IMG/VR virus record: IMGVR_UViG_3300030406_000977
Span: 1 to 22,035 of that record
Direction: 5' to 3' (one strand)
Length of the DNA: 22,035 bases
Source: a virus
Every line of letters starts with the position of its first letter. Positions within the stretch are counted from its first letter, which is position 1. The notes under the pieces were generated by a model. It did not search any database and was not told where the DNA came from. It was given only the letters and a program-made list of their open reading frames with translations. Position numbers and translations under genes: made by a program. Below, in pieces: positions 199 through 7,463 of the stretch.

Positions 199-1728
199 AT
201 GCGTATAGAAGATTTACCTAAAGACTTAAAAAATGAGCTTAAAGCTATACTGGAAGATCCAGAAAAGTTTATAAAGCTGTTGCATATACCGGATAAAGCA
301 AGCAGTAAGCGTGTACGGTTTGACCCTAATTTAGAGCAGCTACGGTTGTTAAAAAAGCTAATAGGTCGTAAACGTGTAATTGTATTAAAGCCACGTCAGA
401 TTGGTGTTTCTACATTGATCAGGGCTTATGCTTTGTGGCAGGTTTATAAGACTGCTGATCCGTTAAAGTTTGGTGTTATTAGCTTTCATGATCGCTCTGC
501 TAAGCATCTAAGACGCATGGATAATACTCTATTAAACTCGATGCCTAAGTTGTTGCATCGTGAGTTAGCGTTAAATAATACAACGACATTAGAGTTTGCG
601 GATACACAGGCTTCTTTGTGTTCATATACAGCGGGATCTAAGGGTGGTACACGATCGTTTACTTTGACAGCAGCGCATTTGTCTGAGTTTGCTTTTTATG
701 ATGATCCAGAGGAGTTGTTAGCGCAGGTTACAGCTACTGTTGGTAACGGTCAGATTATTATAGAGTCTACGTCTAATAAGGCTGGTGATGCCTTTCATCG
801 CTTAGTGCAGGGCTGTCCTGAAAATGGATGGGAGCTTGTGACCTTTTGGTGGTGGGAGCATGAAAAGTATAGGATGCCAGCACCTAAGAAGTTTAGACAG
901 ACAGACCAAGAGAAAGCTTTAGTAGAGCGTTATGGTTTAGATAATGAGCAGTTGTATTGGAGGAGACAACAGATAGCAACACTGGGTATAGAGAAGTTTA
1001 GAAGGGAATACCCGGCATGTATGGATGATGCTTTTTTCTTTGCTTCATCGACGTATTTTAATCCTGATGATTTGCTCAAGATAGAAGCTATTCCTTTTAC
1101 CGATACTGAGCGCATTTATGAGGAGCCATTAGAGCATGATCGTTATGCTATTGGTGTTGATGTTGCTGCTGGTGTAGGATCTGATTACTCAGCCATTACC
1201 GTAGTATCAATGTCTACAAATCAACCAGTGTATCATTATCGCAGCAATACAATTAGTCCTACTGACTTTAGTGATGTGGTATTAAGAGTGGCACAAAATT
1301 ACAATGACGCTAAAGTATTGTGTGAGTCTAATAACCATGGACACGTTGTATTGTATCGATTGCGCCATCTTGGATATAAAAACTTGTGGCTATCTCACAA
1401 AGGTATGGATTGGGTTACATCTGTTAAATCTAAACTTGATGCATTTGAAACATTACGAGAATATGTTAACGCAGGTATGATTACTTGTTTAGATATGCAG
1501 GTATTAGCTGAACTAAGAGCGTTAGTTGTGTTGCGCGTAACACCAGAGGCACCAAGAGGTATGCACGATGATATGGCAATGTCAATGGCTTTAGCCTATA
1601 GATGCCTTCGGGATATACCCAGAAGATTGTTAACTAATGCAAGACGGAATCATATGGATATGCTAATCTCTGAACAACGGGCTAATAAACTGAGAGATAT
1701 GCCTATTCCCTGGAAGGTTAACCGATGA
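199..1728 (+). CDS. terL: Terminase large subunit (DNA packaging ATPase-nuclease)
   Basis: This is the two-domain packaging motor that docks on the portal, pumps DNA into the procapsid and cuts the concatemer. The N-terminal ATPase shows a deviant Walker A at residues 64-72 (KPRQIGVST), with no lysine in the classical GK[ST] position. It also has a Walker B-like hydrophobic strand ending in HLSE (Glu163) and a coupling-type motif IIIESTSN at 187-193. The C-terminal RNase H-like nuclease shows the expected acidic residues: Asp321 in GVDVAAG with Asp329, Glu376 in LCESNNHG, and Asp457-Asp458 in MHDDMAMS. A length of 509 residues is normal for the family. The ATG at 199 has no recognisable Shine-Dalgarno. 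The stop overlaps the portal ATG by four bases (ATGA), a common packaging-gene coupling. No small terminase gene is recognised in the window. Confidence 0.93.
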   Translation: MRIEDLPKDLKNELKAILEDPEKFIKLLHIPDKASSKRVRFDPNLEQLRLLKKLIGRKRVIVLKPRQIGVSTLIRAYALWQVYKTADPLKFGVISFHDRSAKHLRRMDNTLLNSMPKLLHRELALNNTTTLEFADTQASLCSYTAGSKGGTRSFTLTAAHLSEFAFYDDPEELLAQVTATVGNGQIIIESTSNKAGDAFHRLVQGCPENGWELVTFWWWEHEKYRMPAPKKFRQTDQEKALVERYGLDNEQLYWRRQQIATLGIEKFRREYPACMDDAFFFASSTYFNPDDLLKIEAIPFTDTERIYEEPLEHDRYAIGVDVAAGVGSDYSAITVVSMSTNQPVYHYRSNTISPTDFSDVVLRVAQNYNDAKVLCESNNHGHVVLYRLRHLGYKNLWLSHKGMDWVTSVKSKLDAFETLREYVNAGMITCLDMQVLAELRALVVLRVTPEAPRGMHDDMAMSMALAYRCLRDIPRRLLTNARRNHMDMLISEQRANKLRDMPIPWKVNR

Positions 1729-3413
1729 TAACGCCAAAAGTTGTAGAACTCTATTATGAAGATCACAAAAAGTATTGGGATGATTTGCGATCTGAACTAA
1801 GACAAATGCGAGCTGCCTACATGTGTAGATATTGGGATAAGTCGCATACACCTGATCAAATACTTATAGAGACCAGTAGAGCATATGAATTTATTGAAGG
1901 CTATGTTGCTTCCTTGTTTGCTCGCTCACCTGCTGTTGTTGTTAAGGGCGACATTAGAGGCGATGGCGATCCAGAGAAGGTACAGGCCATTGTCAACGAA
2001 TTTTTAGGACATATAAGAAATCAATTAGAGGATGCCACCAGATTAGGATTAATAAATCCTTGTTCATTTTTAAAACTGGTGCCAAATGATCACCCTGATC
2101 CATACAAGCGTGTGTCGGTATCTGCGGTTGCTCCTTGGGATGTATTGGTTGATACTGATGCGCAGTCTTGGAGCAGCCAAAGATTTGTAGGCCATCGTTA
2201 TTATTTAACTGAAAAAGAAGCTAAGAGTCGTTACGGCAATAAGCAGTTTAGCCCACACCCATTAGTTAGATACTTAGATCAAGACGCTGAAACAGTAAAC
2301 CTTGGCTACAACGAAGAAAAACCACCAGAAGATCCTAACTTTCAATACGTTGAGATTGTAGAGTTTTATGATATAGAGCATGACCGCTTTCTTGTTTGGA
2401 GTCCAGACTATAAGAATGGCGAAAAGTTTGTAGCTGATGGCATTATGCTACCAGAAGGACCAGACGGTGAGATTAAAGAAAAAAAATATGACCAAATACC
2501 CTTCAAGGATAGCGCGGGCTATCCCCTTGTTCCTATTGTACCTCTCTATTACAGCCGCCAACCGGATGTCCCAATGCGAGGATATTCCAGTTTAAGAAGA
2601 GTATACGATCAGGTTCAAGAACATAATATTATTAGGTCATATCAAGCATCAATGGTAAGACGCGCTGCGCGGCAATGGATTGTAGAGTCTGGCGTTTTTG
2701 ATGCTGAGTGCATGGCTAAGCTTTCGCAAGGTGTTGATGGCGAGTTTATAGAAGTTGAACTATCCCCTGGACAACAGTTGTCAGGTTCAATTATATCAGT
2801 ACCGCACACACCAGTACCCAATGAACTGCAAGCTTACGTCCAACAAGTACAGACAGATTTTGAACGCGGATCTGTACTCGCACCATTTACAAGAGGCGAA
2901 TCAACCAGAGCCACAGCCACAGAAATAACTGCATTAGCTGCATATTCTTCTTCGGAAGTAGGTAGACTGGCCAGAGAACGTGACGCTGCTATAGAGATGA
3001 CTGCTAACATTTATTGTTCAATGCTTAAATTGTATCTTAAAGATGAAGGCGACATGATGGTATTAAACGGAATGCCTACTATAGTTGGATTTAAAGATTT
3101 AGATGGTGACTTTACCTTTTATGCACAAGATTCTGGTGCAACTCCTGTCTCAGAAGCTATTAAAAAACAAGAGTTTATGGCTGCATTGCCTACATTAATT
3201 AATATGGGTGTGCCTCAAGACAAGGTATTAGAAGAATTGGTGCGCTACCTTGACTTGCCACACTCCTTTTTAGACCATCTTGCATCAGCACCACAATCTC
3301 CAGATCCCGCAGCAACTACAACAGCAGAAGCGGGTGTTCAACAATCTTCTGGTCTTGCCCCTGGACAACAACCCAGCCCAGAAGATATAGCCATGTTCTT
3401 ACCAAATGCTTAA
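1725..3413 (+). CDS. Portal protein
   Basis: Probable dodecameric portal, the ring at one capsid vertex through which terminase loads DNA. The call rests on position directly after the large terminase (four-base ATGA overlap), on size (562 residues) and on overall character. It has a helical N-terminal region rich in charged and aromatic residues, a mixed alpha/beta middle, a long helical stretch after about residue 350 that fits a portal stem/wing region, and a flexible Pro/Gln/Ala-rich C-terminus after about residue 520. GGAAGG at 1712-1717, seven bases before the ATG, can serve as ribosome binding site. Its stop overlaps the next gene by eight bases. I cannot assign it to a specific portal family by eye. 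The alternative of another large head protein is unlikely given the context. Confidence 0.85.
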   Translation: MITPKVVELYYEDHKKYWDDLRSELRQMRAAYMCRYWDKSHTPDQILIETSRAYEFIEGYVASLFARSPAVVVKGDIRGDGDPEKVQAIVNEFLGHIRNQLEDATRLGLINPCSFLKLVPNDHPDPYKRVSVSAVAPWDVLVDTDAQSWSSQRFVGHRYYLTEKEAKSRYGNKQFSPHPLVRYLDQDAETVNLGYNEEKPPEDPNFQYVEIVEFYDIEHDRFLVWSPDYKNGEKFVADGIMLPEGPDGEIKEKKYDQIPFKDSAGYPLVPIVPLYYSRQPDVPMRGYSSLRRVYDQVQEHNIIRSYQASMVRRAARQWIVESGVFDAECMAKLSQGVDGEFIEVELSPGQQLSGSIISVPHTPVPNELQAYVQQVQTDFERGSVLAPFTRGESTRATATEITALAAYSSSEVGRLARERDAAIEMTANIYCSMLKLYLKDEGDMMVLNGMPTIVGFKDLDGDFTFYAQDSGATPVSEAIKKQEFMAALPTLINMGVPQDKVLEELVRYLDLPHSFLDHLASAPQSPDPAATTTAEAGVQQSSGLAPGQQPSPEDIAMFLPNA

Positions 3414-3988: not shown

Positions 3989-4387
3989 ATGCCTATATAC
4001 GATTATAAATGCCATAAATGCAACATAACAGAAGAGCATTATATGTCTTTTGATGCAGAAGATGTAGTTCATTGCGAGCAATGTAACGGTGTTATGAAGA
4101 GATGCGTCACATTATGGGCTAATACCCCAAGTAGGTGGGGCGATTCTCATGGTTATTTTGATCGTGGTCTTGGTACATATGTAAAGTCTAACGTGCATCG
4201 TGATAAAATTATGAAAGAGCGCAACATTAGACCTGTATCTCAACAAGAAATTGACGAAGCGCAACACGAATCATACACTACTCACAAACAACATGAAAAA
4301 GATGTGGTTAAGTTTCAATCGGAACTGGCTAAACACAATGATACAACCAAAGCAATCGACAATACGTTTGCGACTCAGGAGATATAA
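3989..4387 (+). CDS. FmdB-type zinc-ribbon protein
   Basis: A 132-residue protein that opens with a compact zinc ribbon: MPIYDYKC with Cys8-x2-Cys11 and, after 17 residues, Cys29-x2-Cys32. This matches the FmdB/CxxC_CxxC_SSSS family of putative regulatory zinc ribbons, which often begin with MP-x-Y-x-Y-x-C. Behind it is an aromatic segment around residues 43-62 (WANTPSRWGDSHGYFDRGLG) and a charged helical tail ending near residue 132. The role in phages is not established. Nucleic-acid or protein binding during head assembly or packaging is inference from position. It starts one base after the preceding stop, with the weak purine-rich AGAAGAA upstream, and its TAATG stop-start junction couples it to the next gene. 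Confidence 0.7.
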   Translation: MPIYDYKCHKCNITEEHYMSFDAEDVVHCEQCNGVMKRCVTLWANTPSRWGDSHGYFDRGLGTYVKSNVHRDKIMKERNIRPVSQQEIDEAQHESYTTHKQHEKDVVKFQSELAKHNDTTKAIDNTFATQEI

Positions 4388-4875
4388 TGTCTATACCCCA
4401 AGATATTCAAGCCGACATTGATGATGTTGCAACAAAAAAAGAAATGATGGTAACTGATGCTATGATGGATATGGTGCCAAGAGGGCAATTTGGCGCAGAA
4501 GCACTGAACCGTTTAGTTGATGAAGTTAATAAACTTTTACCAAAAATGGATATGCCTTTATATCCTACATTTAGCGAAGACATAACCGTATTTCCGCCTG
4601 AATTTGTAGATGTTTTGATGGGAATCGCAGACGTAGCAAGCCAAGCTGGAATAGAAGCACCGTTTGATTTGTCTGCTGTAGAGTCAGATCGTGATCTTGC
4701 TATGCTTGCTGGACAAGTGGCGCAACTTGCAGAGGATCAAACATTGCTTGATTTTATTGCAGGTGCTAATCAAGAAGAAGCAGAAGAAGAGCCTGTTGCT
4801 GAAGTAGATACTATGGAAGAAACGCCAGAAGGCCCTGTTGAAACTGATGAAGAGTTATTTTTAAGGAGAATGTGA
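4387..4875 (+). CDS. Acidic head-module protein of unknown function
   Basis: I do not recognise this 162-residue protein. It starts at the ATG of a TAATG junction, with a good ribosome binding site (AGGAG at 4377-4381, five-base spacing). The N-terminal two thirds look helical, with many Met, Asp and hydrophobic residues. From about residue 130 the protein is a highly acidic, Glu-rich, probably disordered tail (repeated EEAEEE-type runs). It lies between the zinc-ribbon gene and the scaffold gene and contains the scaffold gene's Shine-Dalgarno within its last codons. An assembly chaperone, a scaffold cofactor or a minor head protein would fit the acidity and position, but nothing in the sequence decides between them. 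Confidence 0.65.
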   Translation: MSIPQDIQADIDDVATKKEMMVTDAMMDMVPRGQFGAEALNRLVDEVNKLLPKMDMPLYPTFSEDITVFPPEFVDVLMGIADVASQAGIEAPFDLSAVESDRDLAMLAGQVAQLAEDQTLLDFIAGANQEEAEEEPVAEVDTMEETPEGPVETDEELFLRRM

Positions 4876-5723
4876 TGGTAGAAGAAACAGCCCCTGTGAC
4901 GGCGGGTGATACAAACGAGGCCCCAACAACTTCAGAAGACGTGGTGGCAACGGCTCCAGAAGCTGTTGGTGAGCCTCAACCCACACCTGATACCCCAGAA
5001 AATCGTATTGAAGCGATACTGCAAAAGCATGAGGCTAAACAAAATGGTGAAGTGGTTGAAGAAGAAAGTCTGCGCGATGGCGAGTCATGGGATTCTATTT
5101 ATAAAAATCAACCAGACGAAGTTAAAAGGGCTATGCAGTCGTTGCGTAAAAACTATACACAGAAGACTCAAGAGCTTAGTAAACAACGCAAGGAAGCTAA
5201 AGAACAATATGAAAAAGCGTTGGCTCTTCAAAAAAATCTATACGAGTCTGATGCTTATAAAAACTTACAGTCTCTTGCTGATGAAGCAGGTGAAGAGTTT
5301 GATCCGTTTGATGAAGGATCTTTTAAAAAGTACGTCGAAAAAGCAGTAGCTAAAAGATTACAGTCTGTTCTTGAACCAATGTATCAAGAGCAACAAAAGG
5401 CACAAGCCAGACAAAAGTTAAATAACTTTATGGATGAACATCAAGAGTTAAAGACTGACGATAAGTTTAAAGCTGAAGTTAAGACAGTATTGGTTGCAAA
5501 TGAAAACCTTACATTAGAACAAGCATATTGGATTGTTAAGGGCAAAGCTGCAAAAGAACAGAACAATGCGCTTACAATGAAAGAAGAAAATAGAAGACGT
5601 GCTGCAAGAGCTGCTGGATTAAAAATTGCCAATGGTAAGCGTGCTGGTATTACTGCACCACCGAACGCAAAAGAAATGAAAGCAGTAGAATTGTATGAAT
5701 ACTTGCTATCTCAAAGAAAATAA
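4875..5723 (+). CDS. Capsid scaffolding protein
   Basis: Probable internal scaffold that templates procapsid assembly and is then removed. The first ~50 residues are acidic and Pro/Thr/Ala-rich (disordered). Residues ~85-125 and ~150-190 are long charged helices, rich in Lys, Glu and Gln and likely coiled coil, followed by a basic C-terminal region (RRRAARAAGLK near 240-250) of the type scaffolds use to bind coat protein. It lies immediately before the major capsid gene, the standard place. I chose ATG 4875 (282 residues) over the in-frame GTG at 4872. AAGGAG at 4863-4868 sits six bases from the ATG but only three from the GTG, and the ATG forms a TGATG junction with the preceding stop. No protease motif is visible. 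Confidence 0.75.
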   Translation: MVEETAPVTAGDTNEAPTTSEDVVATAPEAVGEPQPTPDTPENRIEAILQKHEAKQNGEVVEEESLRDGESWDSIYKNQPDEVKRAMQSLRKNYTQKTQELSKQRKEAKEQYEKALALQKNLYESDAYKNLQSLADEAGEEFDPFDEGSFKKYVEKAVAKRLQSVLEPMYQEQQKAQARQKLNNFMDEHQELKTDDKFKAEVKTVLVANENLTLEQAYWIVKGKAAKEQNNALTMKEENRRRAARAAGLKIANGKRAGITAPPNAKEMKAVELYEYLLSQRK

Positions 5724-5741
5724 GGTACTACTTATTTGACA

Positions 5742-5828
5742 GAGGCCCCAGTTTGGATACGCCTAAGTCAGGCCCCGCTTAGCGGATACGCCCCAAGAGA
5801 CTAAACATTAAACAAACTGGAGACTAAA
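5742..5828 (+). promoter_or_regulatory. Structured 5' leader of the major capsid gene (candidate cis-regulatory RNA)
   Basis: The 105-base gap before the capsid gene is clearly richer in G and C than its surroundings and is organised. CCAGTTTG (5748-5755) is an exact reverse complement of CAAACTGG (5813-5820). The resulting 8-bp stem would close a 57-base internal region and bury the first two G of the capsid Shine-Dalgarno (GGAGA, 5819-5823, five bases before ATG 5829). Inside it, CTAAG (5763-5767) can pair with CTTAG (5778-5782). GCG (5782-5784) with CGC (5789-5791) can form a second small hairpin that competes for G5782. I infer an mRNA leader that tunes or times capsid translation or protects the message. 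I cannot assign it to a named RNA family. Confidence 0.5.
5743..5792 (+). repeat. Imperfect tandem repeat in the capsid-gene leader
   Basis: Two copies of a module made of AGGCCCC, a short spacer, then GGATACGCC lie at 5743-5763 and 5770-5792. The flanking blocks are identical, while the spacers differ: AGTTT (5 bases) in the first and GCTTAGC (7 bases) in the second. This is far from the base composition of the genome around it and lies in non-coding DNA, so a protein- or RNA-binding role is more likely than chance. Confidence 0.75.
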
Positions 5829-6869
5829 ATGGCGTTGTCATTTGACGTACTCGCGAGTACCTTACGCATTCTGCGCGATAGGGAAGTGGATAATACATTC
5901 CGTACGATTCCCCTCTTGGATGCAGTTAAAGCTAAGGGAAACATCGAGAAAACAAACGGTGGTTCTAAAGTCAATCACCCGGTCATTCTGGCCGAACATT
6001 CATCTATTACACAATTATCAACTGGTTATGAAAGCGTTAACCTTGCTGTTAAAGATCCGCTGCGAACTGCCGAGTTTGACTGGTGTGACTTTGTTGCGCC
6101 TGTTGTTGTTACAGAAAAAGAACAACTTACAAACAAAGGCGACCGAGCAGTAATCCGTATTGCTGAAGCACGATTAAAGTCCGTTATGGGTATGCTTCAA
6201 CGTGAGTTTTGCAAACAAATAGTTAAAGGTAACTCGAGTGTTCTAACTGAACTTAACACCTTGAATGGTTCTGGTTCAAAAGATGGAACAGTCGTTGTAC
6301 CAGCAAAATCTACAGGATTTTTGAACTTTGAACCTTTTGGAGATCAACTTGGTAGTGTTGGTGGAATCAATAAAGCTGATTTTAAAGAATCATGGCAAAA
6401 TCAAATAGCTGATGTAGCTGGTAATTTTACCAATAATGGTTTGTTAAAAATGAGCAATTTAATGATTAAAACGCAAACATATGCACCAGAAGGCGAAGTT
6501 GATATTATTCTTTCTTCTCCATCGTCATATGAGCAGTATCGAAATCAACTTCAAGATAAAGAAAGATATGCAAGCATGGAACAAATGCGAGGATTATCTG
6601 GCAAGCTTGGTTTGCTATATAACGGTGCAATGATGTACATTGAGCCTAATCTTGGGTTTAAAGATGCTACTGATACACATGATATTTCTATGTATTTCTT
6701 GAACTCTAAACTGTTCAATCTATATTTCGATCAAGACGCATTCTTTGAAATGGGCGAAATGAAAGCTATTTCTGGGTATGCTGCTATGTCATCTAACATT
6801 ATGACTCGTACACAGTTGGCTATTAGCCACCTTGCTGGTCATGGTGTACTTATTAATGCGGAGCAATAA
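5829..6869 (+). CDS. Major capsid protein (HK97-fold expected)
   Basis: Main shell protein, 346 residues. The call rests on its place directly after the scaffold and before a small beta-rich decoration-type protein, on a size normal for a major capsid protein without a large insertion, and on its mixed alpha/beta composition. A charged N-terminal arm with RILRDREVDNTF is followed by a loop region. A long helix-prone segment (residues ~105-135) resembles the spine helix of coat proteins. The C-terminal part is beta-rich and ends in SHLAGHGVLINAEQ. There is no N-terminal prohead protease cleavage signal that I can recognise. The ATG has GGAGA five bases upstream, within the structured leader. 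Strong expression is expected and would fit having its own leader and a downstream terminator after the next gene. Confidence 0.87.
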   Translation: MALSFDVLASTLRILRDREVDNTFRTIPLLDAVKAKGNIEKTNGGSKVNHPVILAEHSSITQLSTGYESVNLAVKDPLRTAEFDWCDFVAPVVVTEKEQLTNKGDRAVIRIAEARLKSVMGMLQREFCKQIVKGNSSVLTELNTLNGSGSKDGTVVVPAKSTGFLNFEPFGDQLGSVGGINKADFKESWQNQIADVAGNFTNNGLLKMSNLMIKTQTYAPEGEVDIILSSPSSYEQYRNQLQDKERYASMEQMRGLSGKLGLLYNGAMMYIEPNLGFKDATDTHDISMYFLNSKLFNLYFDQDAFFEMGEMKAISGYAAMSSNIMTRTQLAISHLAGHGVLINAEQ

Positions 6870-7377: not shown

Positions 7378-7432
7378 AGAACCGTCACAGGGGGGTTCTA
7401 CCCGCCTTGGGCATCCTCGCCCACTCCCCCCT
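7378..7432 (+). promoter_or_regulatory. Possible antiterminator/alternative stems upstream of the terminator
   Basis: AGGGGGG (7389-7395) can pair with CCCCCCT (7426-7432), a 7-bp stem enclosing a hairpin TGGGC/GCCCA (7408-7412 with 7419-7423, six-base loop). The same C-run is the 5' arm of the downstream terminator, so the two folds exclude each other. A third element, AGAACC (7378-7383) with GGTTCT (7394-7399), would in turn occupy part of the upstream G-run. This is attenuator-like geometry. Whether it is used for regulation is inference. Confidence 0.4.
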
Positions 7433-7463
7433 CCTCCGTTACTGGTGGGGGGGGGTTTTATTT
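7426..7463 (+). terminator. Strong Rho-independent terminator after the capsid block
   Basis: The arm CCCCCCTCCTCC (7426-7437), loop GTTACT (7438-7443) and arm GGTGGGGGGGGG (7444-7455) form a 12-position stem with eleven pairs (one of them G-T) and one T-T mismatch. It is followed directly by TTTTATTT (7456-7463). It lies in the gap between the decoration protein and the adaptor gene. It would cap the highly expressed scaffold-coat-decoration transcript and reduce, but not necessarily abolish, read-through into the tail genes. Confidence 0.85.

Follow-up and report, generated by a model that had tools for sequence, protein, structure and literature searches.

Tandem covarying hairpins in the head-gene leaders of unrelated tailed phages

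How tailed phages make hundreds of capsid proteins for every dozen portals from a single operon, and how they time scaffold against capsid, is to our knowledge mostly unexplained beyond a few model phages. The locus considered here raises the question of whether a short leader between a putative scaffold gene and the major capsid protein (MCP) gene carries an RNA element that could contribute to this control. The window, by which we mean the whole stretch of DNA analysed (22,035 nucleotides, IMG/VR record IMGVR_UViG_3300030406_000977), is a 22-kb tailed-phage fragment with the following features around the leader.

199-1728: terminase gene
1725-3413: portal gene
3989-4387, plus strand: FmdB-like zinc-ribbon protein (Zn_ribbon_8) inside the head operon, a conjectural candidate for a factor that would read the hairpins
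4872-5723, plus strand: putative scaffold gene, 5' of the array; its position suggests the name, and it matches no family
5736-5771, plus strand: hairpin 1, with covariation of both outer stems across relatives
5748-5755, plus strand: CCAGTTTG, 5' arm of the stem proposed by the first-pass annotation; in hairpin 1 it spans the apical CC, the loop and the first G
5771-5792, plus strand: hairpin 2, with a match to covariance model R1 and covariation
5813-5820, plus strand: CAAACTGG, 3' arm of the same proposed stem, overlapping the Shine-Dalgarno sequence
5819-5822, plus strand: Shine-Dalgarno (SD) sequence GGAG of the capsid gene, read from the sequence
5829-6869, plus strand: MCP gene (phrog_9953), ATG at 5829, behind the array

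The first-pass annotation had proposed that CCAGTTTG and CAAACTGG form an 8-bp stem that hides the ribosome binding site of the capsid gene. The pairing itself is as described: the arms are exact reverse complements with a spacing of 57 bases, and the GG of the SD GGAG falls within the 3' arm. As a bare observation, these arms are at chance level in the window, where exact 8-bp inverted repeats with a loop of 3-60 bases number 41, against 31.7 in block shuffles (range 17-44). The fold of the 126-nt capsid leader has a z of -1.41, and shuffling the upstream part of the leader gave an 8-bp Watson-Crick match to the SD region in 2 of 100 cases. Conservation or covariation of the arms in relatives largely fails to appear, since pairing is limited to the window clade and L153 and no two-sided change was seen. 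L001, L002 and L153 form the stem by way of a G-U pair, L007 and L011 retain 5 bp, and nearly all other leaders are at chance level. With 8 bp kept only in the window clade and L153, the SD-sequestering stem is rejected as a conserved motif or family feature. In the leader of L216, hairpin 1 and the SD region can also be matched, over 7 bp, by a sequence (CCTATGG/CCATAGG) that has no relation to the one in the window; 3 of 100 shuffles do as well.

Judged by comparison with relatives, the conserved feature of this leader is instead a pair of tandem hairpins of one type. Hairpin 1 has a far outer stem UUGAC/GUCAG (5736-5740/5767-5771), separated by a 3x3 internal loop (AGA/UAA) from an outer stem GGC/GCC (5744-5746/5761-5763); an unpaired C at 5747 is followed by the apical pairs CC/GG (5748-5749/5755-5756), which enclose the loop AGUUU, and by AUAC (5757-5760) as the 3' strand of the internal loop. 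Hairpin 2 repeats this plan, with an outer stem GGC/GCC (5771-5773/5790-5792), an unpaired C at 5774, an apical stem CCGC/GCGG (5775-5778/5782-5785) closed by the loop UUA, and again AUAC (5786-5789) on the 3' side. Model R1 matches the window at 5742-5765 and 5769-5794. The family consensus begins with an outer stem of 3-7 bp, a single unpaired C and an apical stem starting with C-G, and continues through a free loop and the four-base strand A-Y-A-C to the other half of the outer stem; A-Y-A-A replaces A-Y-A-C in many soil phages. Both window hairpins belong to the head-leader hairpin family defined in this way (an outer stem, one unpaired C, an apical C-G start, AYAM on the 3' side, and a sense-strand position adjoining a head-gene start).

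Several lines of evidence show that the hairpin exists as a covarying RNA fold, as far as comparison of sequences can establish one. Units were anchored only on the letters CCC..GG[AG][CT]A[AC], and pairing was not used for their selection. In this set, outer pairs 2 and 3 of family A (the phages with the MCP of the window, phrog_9953) and outer pairs 1, 2 and 4 of family B (Phage_capsid_2, PF19821) are paired above the level of shuffled controls (0/2000 for each), with up to six pair types, G-U included. The second apical pair is also exchanged, as in CC..GG to CUGC..GCAG. Strong covariation extends beyond the 3x3 internal loop of hairpin 1 in family A, where the far outer stem occurs as GUACU/AGUAC, GUAUU/AAUAC, GUGUU/AACAC, GUGCC/GGCAC and UUGAC/GUCAG, and its second pair is formed in a fraction of 0.86 against 0.39 in shuffles (0/2000). 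MAFFT misplaced the 5' arms of mixed-length hairpins, and the model seed was therefore restricted to hairpins of equal length; it likewise misplaced the arms in whole leaders, which were anchored on the motif instead. In the equal-length seed set, which was selected for pairing and is biased accordingly, 92% of cells are paired against 69% after shuffling, and the covariation score of 0.607 compares with 0.185 for shuffled and at most 0.082 for slid alignments.

Strong covariation of the hairpin is found across 119 distinct leaders from the two MCP families, in which it stands about 30-40 nt upstream of the MCP start codon and is nearly absent elsewhere. Of the 55 distinct family-A leaders, 51 contain the strict unit. 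These leaders, 12.1 kb in total, have 74 units; the 191 kb outside them have 2 on the same strand and 0 on the opposite one. A scan of family B that ignored the loop found at least one unit in all 64 distinct leaders (179 raw matches, overlapping registers included), and 167 of 170 R1 matches at family-B loci lie within the MCP leader, 26 of these hairpin sequences being those from which R1 was built. The two MCP families show no homology by profile comparison, for which the profiles were shallow, and the family A terminase was not found in phages of family B or C. Copy number before the head genes of these unrelated phages ranges from 1 to 4 hairpins. DNA-pattern scans run without any protein query returned 68 tandem clusters, comprising 46 before family B, 11 before family A and 11 others. 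Eight of the last 11 flank, or fall within, the opening codons of a scaffold gene, recognised by position and make-up and followed by an MCP of the phrog_14242 or SU10 type. The hairpin is there translated as A-P-..-P-D-T-P in L330 and, in another frame, as G-P-..-G-H-A in L335, and this difference in reading frame argues for conservation of the nucleotides and not of the protein. This third context, with few loci, is the weakest part of the distribution. Among ten near-complete genomes examined with the strict scanner, seven contain exactly one cluster, G009 has a single unit only, and G003 and G004 have none above the cut-off.

The distribution extends to phages in culture. In Pelagibacter phage Baldr EXVC032P, two units lie in the interval from the capsid-assembly gene to the MCP gene, one of them AUUCG-C-CC[UUUA]GG-ACAA-CGAAU. 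Ten pelagiphages of the HTVC010P type have a single hairpin of a variant form (AGAA or AUAA), which lies 37-43 nt upstream of the MCP gene. In this variant all ten sequences form apical pairs 1-4 together with outer pairs 1, 3, 4, 5 and 6, with compensatory changes, and all ten have a mismatch at outer pair 2; the search pattern had fixed outer pair 1 and apical pair 1. A second, plain hairpin (approximately AGUCU-loop-AGACU) is conserved upstream of the variant hairpin in the pelagiphage MCP leaders L146, L147, L150 and L521-L527. At chromosomal or metagenome-assembled-genome loci, matches stand just before a family-B MCP gene in L299 (Rhodospirillaceae R-7), L300 (Nitrosovibrio Nv4), L301 (a strong match) and L302 (a weak one). 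No array was found in distant MCP relatives among cultured phages, namely Mx8, Mx9, BUCT555, ppBjS10J-1, Shocker, CRP-810, Mel-JY34, Kuura, EBPR podovirus 3 and Vibrio ABTNL-3. A 15-bit match in Mx8 lies inside the upstream gene and probably arose by chance.

The first-pass annotation had also suggested that the capsid leader is structured and holds an undescribed RNA motif, and this part of its proposal stands for the tandem hairpins and falls for the 8-bp stem. The search against RNA family models that it called for returned no Rfam 15 match at the gathering score for the window, 8 further array-bearing loci, or the pelagiphage and proviral loci, and positions 5600-5950 of the window gave none even at E<=10. 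A literature search found no description of the hairpin; subscription papers and preprints were outside its scope, and an earlier description is possible. The manA and wcaG motifs of marine cyanophages are structured RNAs that were likewise found comparatively in phage genomes and marine metagenomes (PMC2864571). These motifs precede metabolic genes, whereas the hairpins described here precede head genes, and the text of that paper mentions no capsid-associated motif (PMC2864571); a search of PMC8040213 for capsid motifs also found none. By Rfam 15 and the literature searched, the hairpin type thus appears so far undescribed.

A further regularity bears on how the hairpins may be read. In family B, A-Y-A-M ends in either A or C, a letter that in soil phages changes jointly throughout a leader; hairpins within one leader agree at this position in 93% of pairs against 52% expected (0/2000), or 95% against 56% after thinning to MCPs below 85% identity. 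Neither the outer arms nor loop bases 1 and 2 agree within leaders in this way, and the concerted fourth base is therefore not a product of recent duplication. Both hairpins of the window carry AUAC, but family A, which is almost entirely C-type, is uninformative about the concert on its own. At least seven switches between A and C are needed on the MCP tree, four of them forced by supported branches. The clearest case is the pair L269 and L271, with MCPs that differ at 4 of 305 residues: the three hairpins of L269 all have ACAC, those of L271 have AGAA, ACAA and GCAA, and the fourth base is thus switched in every copy. The MCP columns that correlate with loop type (88% at best) mostly reflect the tree. 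The simplest reading of these data is that one sequence-specific partner, not the MCP, would read all hairpins of a leader. Exceptional internal loops also occur, AUCC in all three hairpins of L273 and AACA, AGCA and ACCA, alike across copies, in L249.

We arrive at a tentative mechanism, to which we give slightly less than an even chance, in which hairpin copies on the mRNA act in cis and are bound by one sequence-specific trans factor to set capsid output. Two conserved hairpins would stand as cis-acting sites a short way 5' of the ribosome landing site on the capsid mRNA, and the factor would bind every copy. Binding may then set how much capsid, or scaffold and capsid, is made, or when, in relation to the terminase and portal, low-copy proteins encoded upstream. 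The factor would most likely be an RNA-binding protein that the phage encodes, and not its capsid protein. The motif is shown by the sequence comparisons; the trans factor and the regulation are what we infer, and the site looks like one for control of head-protein production by an RNA-binding factor. A broader version, which in our estimate falls somewhat short of even, places the arrays in a widespread, hitherto undescribed class of mRNA operators, sited where scaffold and capsid genes meet in unrelated tailed phages, SAR11 phages among them; in this class a fast-changing RNA-binding protein would read the hairpins, the specificity letter (A/C) would flip in all copies of a leader at once, and capsid production would be controlled post-transcriptionally.

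Candidates for the factor differ between groups. At 42 family-B loci an open reading frame between scaffold and array, just upstream of the latter, encodes a protein of about 100 residues (for example L500:2489-2788, plus strand). The N-terminus is rich in Lys and Arg and usually very basic, and a Cys-rich domain (C..C..C..C-x-H) is conserved. This make-up is typical of nucleic-acid-binding proteins, and the small basic Cys-rich protein is the best candidate for the factor in family B. Three members of the family gave no Pfam or PHROG match, the version in L269 and L271 has no obvious basic arm, and no residue of the protein clearly tracks loop type. Family A and the pelagiphages have no Cys-rich gene at that place. 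In the group of the window the factor could be the zinc-ribbon protein encoded at 3989-4387, an FmdB-like protein found two genes before the scaffold gene in 3 of 4 family-A genomes examined. At BLAST level no protein is common to all array-bearing groups, and the only strong inter-group family, present in some genomes only, is a protein of about 280 residues. This protein is shared at 29-45% identity by some otherwise unrelated phages of families A, B and C (L495, L496, L507, L509 and L516).

Among the alternatives to a sequence-specific trans factor, an unlikely one that nevertheless accounts for the position of the array is an element of processing or stability, in which the hairpins would be cut, or would protect a new 5' end, to yield a long-lived capsid mRNA from the polycistronic transcript. 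The array lies exactly between low-copy genes and a gene needed in hundreds of copies, and several stable hairpins in series would suit such a role. General stability would not need the conserved C and AYAM letters or a concerted fourth base; a specific nuclease could require them, and we know of none specific for such hairpin letters.

Rather improbable is autogenous control, in which unassembled capsid protein would bind the hairpins as RNA-phage coat proteins bind their operators. Most arrays directly precede the MCP gene, and a tandem array would presumably suit an oligomerising protein. The near-identity of the L269 and L271 MCPs despite a full switch disfavours the MCP as specificity partner; in addition, one hairpin type serves MCPs without detectable homology, and in the third context the hairpin precedes the scaffold gene instead.

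We regard with comparable doubt an SD switch layered on the array in the clade of the window, in which the stem 5748-5755/5813-5820 would sequester the ribosome binding site in competition with hairpin 1 until a factor that binds hairpin 1 opens it. Because the 5' arm coincides with the apical strand of hairpin 1, the two folds are mutually exclusive. The 8 bp persist, with one G-U exchange, in the window clade and L153, and the single-sequence minimum free energy fold of the window contains the stem with both SD Gs buried. On thermodynamics alone this stem is favoured over both hairpins by 3-6 kcal/mol in the window, L001 and L005. Enforcing the hairpins in the window does not open the SD, which pairs at another place, and the stem is a chance-level repeat that is gone from nearly all other leaders. 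At most, it may serve this clade as an alternative fold in competition with hairpin 1. The regulatory role proposed by the first-pass annotation remains plausible as head-gene control, although not through an SD-sequestering stem as a family feature.

We place lower still a transcription element, in which nascent tandem hairpins would modify RNA polymerase by antitermination or anti-pausing. The put RNAs of HK022, which act in cis on RNA polymerase without a phage protein, are likewise paired hairpins with conserved unpaired bases, and such an element would explain why no phage protein is common to all groups. However, put sites stand at the start of early operons, whereas the array adjoins a start codon at the scaffold/capsid junction in the middle of a late operon, and a conserved polymerase target leaves the A/C switching between close relatives unexplained; the sequences were compared through Rfam only. 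Least probable by far is a DNA-level site for protein binding, packaging or recombination, for which the repeated letters CCC..GGAYAC could serve as recognition sequence, since the stems vary freely if pairing holds, G-U pairs included, and the orientation before head genes is strictly sense.

The preferred reading, a hairpin array bound by a trans factor, has partial precedents. The coat operators of the RNA phages MS2, Qbeta and PP7 are single short hairpins with a conserved unpaired base, bound by coat protein, and this binding controls a viral structural or replicase gene. The head-leader array resembles an operator-hairpin array in outline, sharing the short hairpin, the conserved unpaired base and a place next to a phage gene start; it differs in having 1-4 tandem hairpins in the mRNAs of double-stranded DNA phages, and in that the MCP is an unlikely specificity partner. 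Leaders controlled by CsrA or RsmE also contain several GGA hairpins near the ribosome binding site, and CsrA needs GGA in the loop. The GG of the hairpins described here is instead part of a stem, and a change in it is matched by one in its partner strand; it becomes AG or GCAG with compensation in, for example, L232, L245, L256 and L264. GGA is thus not required, and CsrA-type sites are rejected. Control of a head gene at the mRNA level in a tailed phage is known from the scaffolding protein of P22, which regulates itself post-transcriptionally. We know of no cis RNA element of the present kind for P22, and a literature search for one found nothing.

If the hairpins act as proposed, the element offers a defined cis site, a predicted specificity letter and a near-isogenic natural pair, L269 and L271. 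The cultured systems that carry it, the Pelagibacter phages Baldr and the HTVC010P relatives, make the question of head output directly testable, and the hosts of some carrier phages are the most abundant bacteria of the ocean (SAR11). The element would, moreover, supply Rfam with a further RNA family and metagenome studies with a head-operon marker. Two further structures near these operons may be recorded here. In the window, a terminator-like hairpin of 12 pairs with a T-run lies at 7429-7455, 3' of the gene that follows the MCP gene. Many arrays at family-B loci, those of L109, L046 and L056 among them, are preceded on the 5' side by a recurring GUGCGUUGA and, after it, a GC-rich inverted repeat, GGCGGGG..UUCCCGCC.
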